Source: Candidatus Thorarchaeota archaeon (GTDB lineage Archaea > Asgardarchaeota > Thorarchaeia > Thorarchaeales > Thorarchaeaceae). From it: a stretch of 49,939 bases of DNA. Below, in pieces: positions 8,524-9,330 of this stretch. The notes below the pieces were generated by a model. That model did no database searches and was not told where the DNA came from. It saw only the letters and a program-made list of their open reading frames with translations. The DNA is taken from NCBI GenBank assembly GCA_029858305.1, contig JAOUFI010000012.1, forward strand, positions 1-49,939, in the 5' to 3' direction. The position numbers were made by a program, and so were the translations under genes. The stretch's first letter is position 1, and every line of letters begins with the position of its first letter.

Positions 8524-8610
8524 TCCCAGATGCATTCTCTTGCTCTTGTACCAATATCTAGGTAGTCACGTCTTGTGACTTCATCTTGTGTCCCTCAGAA
8601 GTGGCTTCGC

Positions 8611-8618
8611 TATATATA
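8611..8618 (+). promoter_or_regulatory. TATA box of the micro-gene array
   Basis: TATATATA lies 33-40 bases before the first micro-gene ATG. With the usual archaeal distance to the start of transcription this predicts a leader of only about ten bases, which fits the absence of a good ribosome site in front of the first copy. Confidence 0.5.
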
Positions 8619-8650
8619 CTAATTCTGAGCAGTATTTCTTGTGAACTATT

Positions 8651-8752
8651 ATGGCTCTGACAACTAACAACCGAACTGAACGCGTGCACAAGCACAATCG
8701 CAATCCCCTCTCCACCGAGGCTGTAGCATACGCATATCTCTACAGGAGGTAA
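8651..8752 (+). CDS. Micro-gene copy 1: 33-residue basic peptide of an unnamed tandem family
   Basis: I do not recognise the family. The peptide starts MALTTNNRTERVHKHN and ends NPLSTEAVAYAYLYRR. The two following genes have the same MAL start and the same C-terminal motif S-T-[DE]-A-[LV]-x-Y-A-Y-x-Y-R-R. The N-terminal half is polar and basic; the C-terminal half could form an amphipathic helix rich in Ala and Tyr. The final AGG AGG T doubles as the ribosome site of copy 2. Synonymous changes between copies argue for real coding. No signal peptide, cysteines or membrane helix are present. Confidence 0.75.
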   Translation: MALTTNNRTERVHKHNRNPLSTEAVAYAYLYRR

Positions 8753-8759
8753 TTCAAGC

Positions 8760-8849
8760 ATGGCGCTCGCTAAGACTATTAAAATCAAGACACCCAAGGC
8801 GCTGGTTTCAACTGATGCTCTAACCTATGCTTACTTGTATCGGAGGTAA
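8760..8849 (+). CDS. Micro-gene copy 2: 29-residue peptide of the same family
   Basis: The peptide starts MALAKTIKIKTPK and ends ALVSTDALTYAYLYRR. Its ATG lies nine bases after AGGAGGT, the codons for the last two arginines of copy 1, so translation of the copies is probably coupled. Its own CGG AGG T end serves copy 3. Six lysines but no acidic residue occur before the STDAL motif. Function unknown. Confidence 0.75.
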   Translation: MALAKTIKIKTPKALVSTDALTYAYLYRR

Positions 8850-8855
8850 AACATT

Positions 8856-8945
8856 ATGGCTCTTACAAAGAATATCCAGAGAAAAGATTCAAGCAAGCTC
8901 ATCTCGACTGACGCACTAATCTACGCTTATTCCTACAGGCGGTGA
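8856..8945 (+). CDS. Micro-gene copy 3: 29-residue peptide of the same family
   Basis: The peptide starts MALTKNIQRKDSSK and ends LISTDALIYAYSYRR. The ATG lies eight bases after GGAGGT in the end of copy 2. Unlike the earlier copies it ends AGG CGG TGA and runs straight into a hairpin, so it is the last gene of the unit. A serine replaces leucine between the second and third conserved tyrosines. Function unknown. Confidence 0.75.
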   Translation: MALTKNIQRKDSSKLISTDALIYAYSYRR

Positions 8946-8978
8946 GGTAGAAGGCTACCTCTCGTCTTCTAGTTTTGT
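8944..8978 (+). terminator. Terminator of the micro-gene array
   Basis: GAGGTAG (8944-8950) pairs with CTACCTC (8955-8961) around an AAGG loop, overlapping the stop of copy 3. The pyrimidine-rich, T-rich tract TCGTCTTCTAGTTTTG follows. Confidence 0.65.
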
Positions 8979-9031
8979 ATACTTCTTTCGTCATATCAAC
9001 CTATCATGGCTAGTTTGCAATGAGAAGATGG

Positions 9032-9144
<113 letters not shown>

Positions 9145-9330
9145 ATGAGTGATTTTCTCGAAGACTGTGATTCTCTCATAAACATTGTGACAAAGATATT
9201 TTCTCAGATGGTGGAAAGTATAAGGAGTGAAATTTTTCCCTCTGCTATTGCCATATCATCACACTTTTAGTTACGCGCAATGTGCAATTTTGTATATAGA
9301 GTAGAAATAAGGAGTAAAGGAGCTAATAAT

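Follow-up and report, generated by a model that had tools for sequence, protein, structure and literature searches.

Three tandem microgenes in the window analysed here, a 49,939-nucleotide stretch of a Candidatus Thorarchaeota genome, belong to what sequence comparison identifies as a large, unannotated and Thorarchaeota-specific family of short peptides. We consider it reasonably probable that these peptides act in trans, are translated in step by stop-proximal reinitiation and are part of a transcription-factor regulon that includes envelope and transport genes. The evidence for the family, the coding selection, the operon and the regulon is wholly comparative, and it is from this evidence that we infer translation and a physiological role.

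The peptide family and its distribution

The first microgene, P1 (positions 8651-8752, plus strand), encodes a peptide of 33 aa, MALTTNNRTERVHKHNRNPLSTEAVAYAYLYRR, recognized from its sequence, profile matches and dN/dS. It is followed on the same strand by a P2-type gene (8760-8849) for the 29-aa peptide MALAKTIKIKTPKALVSTDALTYAYLYRR and by a third copy, also of P1/P2 type and 29 aa (MALTKNIQRKDSSKLISTDALIYAYSYRR, 8856-8945), both assigned from sequence and profile matches. An earlier note made from the letters alone had described three frames of these lengths with common ends, and the ORFs, all intact, agree with it exactly. ORF 2 has its Shine-Dalgarno sequence in the last two P1 codons and stop (AGGAGGTAA, 8744-8752, plus strand), and ORF 3 likewise in the final codons of ORF 2 (CGGAGGTAA, 8841-8849, plus strand), as judged from the sequence and from the gap statistics given below. 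A 13-bp terminator hairpin on the plus strand (about 8937-8968) overlaps the last codons of ORF 3 and runs into a T-rich tail; its folding energy is -17.5 kcal/mol, compared with an average of -10.7 for shuffled sequences (z = -2.9), only 1/200 of which folds as well. Together with a TATA box, TATATATAC, at 8611-8619, this hairpin bears out the note's view that the microgenes have a promoter and a terminator of their own. The note had not noticed the micro-operon with P3, the dedicated operator and its regulon, the concerted evolution across loci or the restriction to Thorarchaeota, all described below.

Used alone as query, the second peptide retrieved paralogues elsewhere in the window's genome, which holds 12-13 copies in six places (13 matches to a ten-row profile, one of them weak). 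The homologues in related genomes on which the note had made its peptide family depend were found with a 27-row profile throughout the window's taxonomic family (47/47 genomes, 13/13 genera, 1-14 matches per genome), and the profile had no match in the 181 other genomes of the phylum. Some genera have just one or two recognizable copies. Because there are paralogues in the same genome and copies in all 47 family genomes, the resemblance between the ORFs is not due to chance. An IUPAC pattern for the DNA encoding the C-terminal motif T-D/E-A-x-x-Y-A-Y-x-Y-R-R-stop, scanned over 84,980 prokaryote species (257 Gb), matched 17 stretches, all from Candidatus Thorarchaeota, and the exact motif is thus a candidate diagnostic marker of this lineage. 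A phage origin was considered and rejected, since no viral contig carried the motif and tblastn against 50,697 phage records gave no match.

No significant match to 27 family members was found in Pfam, NCBIfam, PADLOC or the PDB, and those in PHROGs were insignificant, so that, for the libraries searched, the note's wording "possibly undescribed" stands. In the parts of the Asgard literature accessible to us there was no report of such a peptide family, and the titles and abstracts of work on Asgard ribosome profiling and Thorarchaeota metatranscriptomics contained nothing relevant. The examined members of this major Asgard lineage all keep one to a dozen peptide genes that are too short for the usual gene callers, under strong selection at the protein level and mostly behind a dedicated control site. 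This reveals conserved, lineage-defining biology that annotation has overlooked among the relatives of the ancestor of eukaryotes.

Coding selection, operon layout and predicted structure

For the analyses of selection and layout, 217 ORFs in 110 clusters were extracted from the fetched loci. Over 57 disjoint pairs, dN/dS in the coding frame was 0.30 (bootstrap 95% CI 0.25-0.36), with silent change per site more than threefold above replacement change, the comparison by which the note had proposed to judge its family. The other two forward frames gave 1.25 and 1.11, and the mirror of the coding frame on the reverse strand 0.36, as expected. The 13 C-terminal codons preceding the last two had a dN/dS of 0.20-0.21. 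The N-terminal part is likewise under purifying selection, at 0.41-0.42; contrary to what had been claimed, its divergence is not free, and the copies have MAL-x-x-N-N/S-R in common. Homologous loci might also have been expected to betray decay by premature stops, a check that the note had suggested, and none of the listed genome matches of the peptide profile has an internal stop. Its argument from silent sites for selection on the peptide stands for the overall dN/dS and is weakened for the final Arg codons, which are not clean evidence because they are also Shine-Dalgarno or terminator sequence: AGG-AGG-TAA forms the next Shine-Dalgarno or, in the last copy, part of the terminator stem. Final copies do retain Arg-Arg with codons that break the Shine-Dalgarno (AGGCGG, AGGCGT, AGGCGC and AGACGC), yet these overlap a hairpin. 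By these comparisons the ORFs are real protein-coding microgenes under selection at the protein level, and presumably translated.

The conserved element could instead be mainly a repeat at the RNA or DNA level, that is, a structured RNA or a mobile element with incidental ORFs, given that about 100 bp of promoter and P1 are nearly identical between loci of one genome, that many copies lie at contig ends and that terminal hairpins overlap codons. However, the frame-specific pattern, with a dN/dS of 0.30 in the coding frame only, largely refutes this account, the RNA of the ORFs folds unremarkably (z = +1.0 and +0.8), the microgenes have no Rfam match, and their loci are syntenic across genera and not mobile. 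We regard it as very improbable.

The protein-coding microgenes have a common layout, namely P1 (33-36 aa), 5-7 nt, P2 (26-32 aa), 5-6 nt, often an acidic P3 (34-40 aa) with the C-terminus D/E-E-V-L-x-L/W-E-A-T, a hairpin and a T-run. A downstream ATG ORF follows 137 ORFs, at a gap of 4-7 nt in 132 of them, and each ORF carries in its last codons the ribosome-binding site for its successor. The mean charge is +4.8 for the first ORF, +5.4 for the second and -2.3 for P3. The constraint on P3 is weaker than on P1 and P2 (dN/dS 0.44); it has no Pfam match, and its profile matched in 33/47 family genomes. A weak P3 match in one genome outside the taxonomic family (G218, E = 0.0017) was regarded as chance. 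At the window locus P3 is absent and the third P1/P2-type copy occupies its place.

Two variants of this layout were observed. In a third cluster class, comprising one locus of genome G000 (contig C32, L070) and its orthologues, the peptide ends in LYREL, LYNRG or LYRK, and the preceding divergent ORF, which ends in ...TLDSLYYEYTRTK, resembles a decayed or diverged P1. In L067 (6404-6532 in the oriented locus, contig C119), L071 (6045-6173, contig C62) and their orthologues, an extra ORF lies between P1/P2 and the MFS-linked copies; it encodes ...W-S-P-S-G-H-x-x-G-Q...P-V-T-N-V and contains TGGTCA direct repeats and the inverted TGTGACCA, and so may be an operator or internal promoter and not a peptide gene.

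The proximity of motif, stop and next ribosome-binding site also invites a reading as cis-acting leader (arrest) peptides, in which a ribosome pausing at the conserved C-terminus would cover the next Shine-Dalgarno and control the next ORF, at some loci an MFS transporter as the last ORF. The motif is no more than about 13 codons away from the stop, the next Shine-Dalgarno overlaps the last codons, and in one class of loci, seen in 9-10 genomes, an MFS start follows the last micro-ORF after only a few to about 17 nt. However, only the MFS loci place the peptides before a gene that they could regulate; in most clusters a terminator follows and no further gene, and these clusters are nevertheless retained at orthologous sites across genera. 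Moreover, the peptide ends vary (YRR, YR, FRR, TVVR or YREL), so that the distance from motif to stop is not fixed, and the N-terminal half is also constrained (dN/dS 0.42). Very short ORFs, a conserved C-terminus beside the stop and a close Shine-Dalgarno are features in common with TnaC, ErmCL and the arginine attenuator peptide, but, besides lacking a regulated downstream gene at most loci and a fixed motif-to-stop distance, the Thorarchaeota family has several concertedly evolving copies per genome. We consider control in cis by ribosome arrest improbable.

Turning to peptides that would act in trans, the AlphaFold2 model of P1 (47 rows) leaves the N-terminus without structure and places a single helix over residues 22-32, with a mean pLDDT of 82 over residues 21-30 and a pTM of 0.28. 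In 192 peptides, S-T is followed by conserved A, I/L/V, A, Y/F and R at i, i+1, i+4, i+5 and i+8, positions that share one face of the helix behind the S-T cap. The predicted element looks like a short docking helix, and its conserved face is presumably the binding surface. A tail of the HbYX type found in proteasome activators (hydrophobic-Tyr-X at the C-terminus) was rejected, as MYR or TYR ends occur in only part of the P2 copies, and most copies end in YRR, FRR or VVR.

Operator, promoter and regulon

Upstream of P1 in the window, on the plus strand, lies a palindromic operator, AGTCAC(G)TCTTGTGACT (8564-8580), with one mismatch to the family palindrome AGTCACAnnnTGTGACT and supported by cluster counts and by pattern searches of the window's genome and the family. 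It is followed by an additional operator half-site, TGTGTCC (8587-8593, plus strand; TGTGACC in most relatives), defined by its fixed spacing in aligned upstream regions and by pattern matches, and by a core promoter, GTGGCTTCGCTATATATAC (8601-8619, plus strand), which includes the TATA box and is conserved in the aligned upstream regions of several genera and recovered by pattern search. The aligned regions have in common AGTCACAnnnTGTGACT, the half-site TGTGACC, GTGGCTTCGC and the TATA box. The palindrome was present with at most 2 mismatches in 80/110 clusters, ending 70 nt before the P1 ATG in 72 of them and 69 nt before it in 8; among the remaining clusters, 15 have a GGTTTGTnnnACAAACC-like site (at most 2 mismatches), 12 have neither and 3 were too short to tell. 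The composite operator/promoter pattern was found in 32/47 genomes, with 0 in the control.

In a second cluster class, whose locus lies beside a conserved divergent gene (L068, L075, L172 and others), the palindrome GGTTTGTnnnACAAACC adjoins the TATA box; it is intact in L068 and L075 and degenerate in others. At another locus (L233, G041 C77:1214), the full operator and promoter stand at the usual 87-nt offset before an unrelated-looking 39-aa ORF (MTLVTLHHKPTRPVAWVV...), where a peptide gene may have been replaced or have decayed.

A search of the window's genome for operator plus half-site (at most 3 mismatches) returned seven promoters and one overlapping hit, against 1 in the control. The seven belong to four micro-operons, an MFS transporter gene (contig C58), a bactofilin-domain gene (C101) and a gene for a multi-pass membrane protein (C160), for which the only match was a weak one to DUF2207_C. 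All 16 genomes of the genus have the operator before the bactofilin gene (G000 C101:38916, L130, and 15 orthologues), 72-75 nt away in all but one, where the distance is 88, and 11 close orthologues of the C58 MFS gene are preceded by a degenerate operator with 2-5 mismatches. As the operator also drives these three single genes, an envelope or transport setting is likely, and this putative regulon is the best lead to function. It is not the whole story, because some loci use other upstream sequences. The conserved operator also offers a handle on the transcription factor and its regulon, and thereby makes the role of the peptides testable.

The transporters bear on one further account, in which the peptides are exported signals or antagonists, the precursor or a processed C-terminal part leaving the cell through the co-regulated MFS protein and being sensed by, or aimed at, neighbours. 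MFS genes also lie downstream of micro-operons at two locus classes, one MFS gene has the operator alone, one MFS protein matches MFS_3 ("transmembrane secretion effector"), and dispersed paralogues are many. Nevertheless, the copies seen have no hydrophobic signal segment, no maturation enzyme is conserved beside the clusters, the MFS genes do not adjoin most loci, and the copies are homogenized within genomes, the opposite of the diversification typical of signalling specificity or of an antagonists' arms race. The secreted peptide entertained by the note is accordingly unsupported by the sequences, which are charged and without a hydrophobic signal, and export is kept in play by the MFS transporters of the regulon. 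The Phr precursors of Bacillus and the arbitrium precursor AimP are likewise paralogous, 30-45 aa long and informative at the C-terminus, but the Thorarchaeota peptides have neither a secretion signal nor a paired receptor gene at each locus, and their motif is homogenized and not diversified. Nor was a modification, protease or receptor gene of RiPP or pheromone type common to all loci, the flanking families differing from locus to locus. We give the export account little credence.

Stable loci and the proposed role of the peptides

The flanking genes define about seven syntenic loci, several of them common to different genera; one, found in 17 genomes, lies beside a conserved divergent gene of winged-helix-like appearance without a Pfam match. 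In a comparison of G015 with G016, flanks matched locus for locus (0.65-0.87 among orthologous ones) and operon cores matched within each genome (0.84-0.95, against 0.78-0.82 between genomes), which indicates that the copies are stable in place but homogenized in each genome. This synteny and the pairing of the flanks led us to reject a mobile, MITE-like element. Homogenized copies at stable loci, kept across genera even where no gene lies downstream, would fit a dosage-sensitive product acting in trans.

Such a product resembles several known systems in part. Type I toxins (Ldr, Ibs, Hok) likewise come from several short ORFs per genome, both in tandem and dispersed, but they are hydrophobic membrane peptides with an antisense RNA, whereas the Thorarchaeota peptides are charged, have no visible hydrophobic stretch and are arranged in operons preceded by an operator. 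With ribosomal protein L41e and other tiny basic proteins, P1 and P2 share a basic character and a length under 40 aa; the Thorarchaeota peptides, in contrast, match no library entry or PDB chain and occur as two to three paralogues per operon at many loci, in Thorarchaeota only. Multicopy families in concerted evolution, such as rRNA genes, share dispersed copies at stable loci that are similar within a genome, but here the copies are protein-coding microgenes of an archaeon with a conserved operator. With no relative in the libraries searched and no known system that combines these features, the family appears to be of a new kind, although the biochemistry of its peptides could turn out to be of a familiar type.

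The trans-acting role that we favour would proceed as follows. A dedicated, putative transcription factor would bind AGTCACAnnnTGTGACT and the half-site upstream of the TATA box and turn on several dispersed micro-operons simultaneously. Each mRNA would be translated as P1, P2 and often the acidic P3. A ribosome finishing one ORF would restart at the Shine-Dalgarno contained in the end of that ORF, so that production of the peptides stays in step. The peptides would each combine a flexible N-terminus, basic in P1 and P2, with an S-T-capped C-terminal helix, one face of which would presumably dock on a partner macromolecule, and the peptides would serve as high-dosage accessory binders in an envelope or transport response. 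Taken alone, the envelope or transport role is somewhat short of an even chance. More tentatively still, and rather unlikely in this specific form, the peptides may be dose-dependent trans modulators of envelope and cytoskeleton assembly in Thorarchaeota, with one factor co-inducing the dispersed, concertedly evolving micro-operons (two or three helix-tailed peptides of 26-40 aa), a bactofilin-type cytoskeletal protein and MFS transporters. If true, such co-induced peptides would constitute a peptide-based layer of envelope and cytoskeleton control not described in archaea.

At the window locus, the microgenes are flanked upstream by a small membrane-protein gene, with EF-1A beyond it, and downstream by an intron-containing tRNA-Ser-like sequence, a hemerythrin-domain gene and, by its sequence, an IF-2/eIF5B-type GTPase gene. 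The tRNA-Ser(GCU)-like sequence (9030-9146, minus strand) was missed by ARAGORN and had a sub-threshold Rfam tRNA match (20.3 bits); its anticodon context is GATTGCTAATC, the D-arm region appears to contain an intron, and in a relative (L078) an additional insertion adjoins the anticodon.
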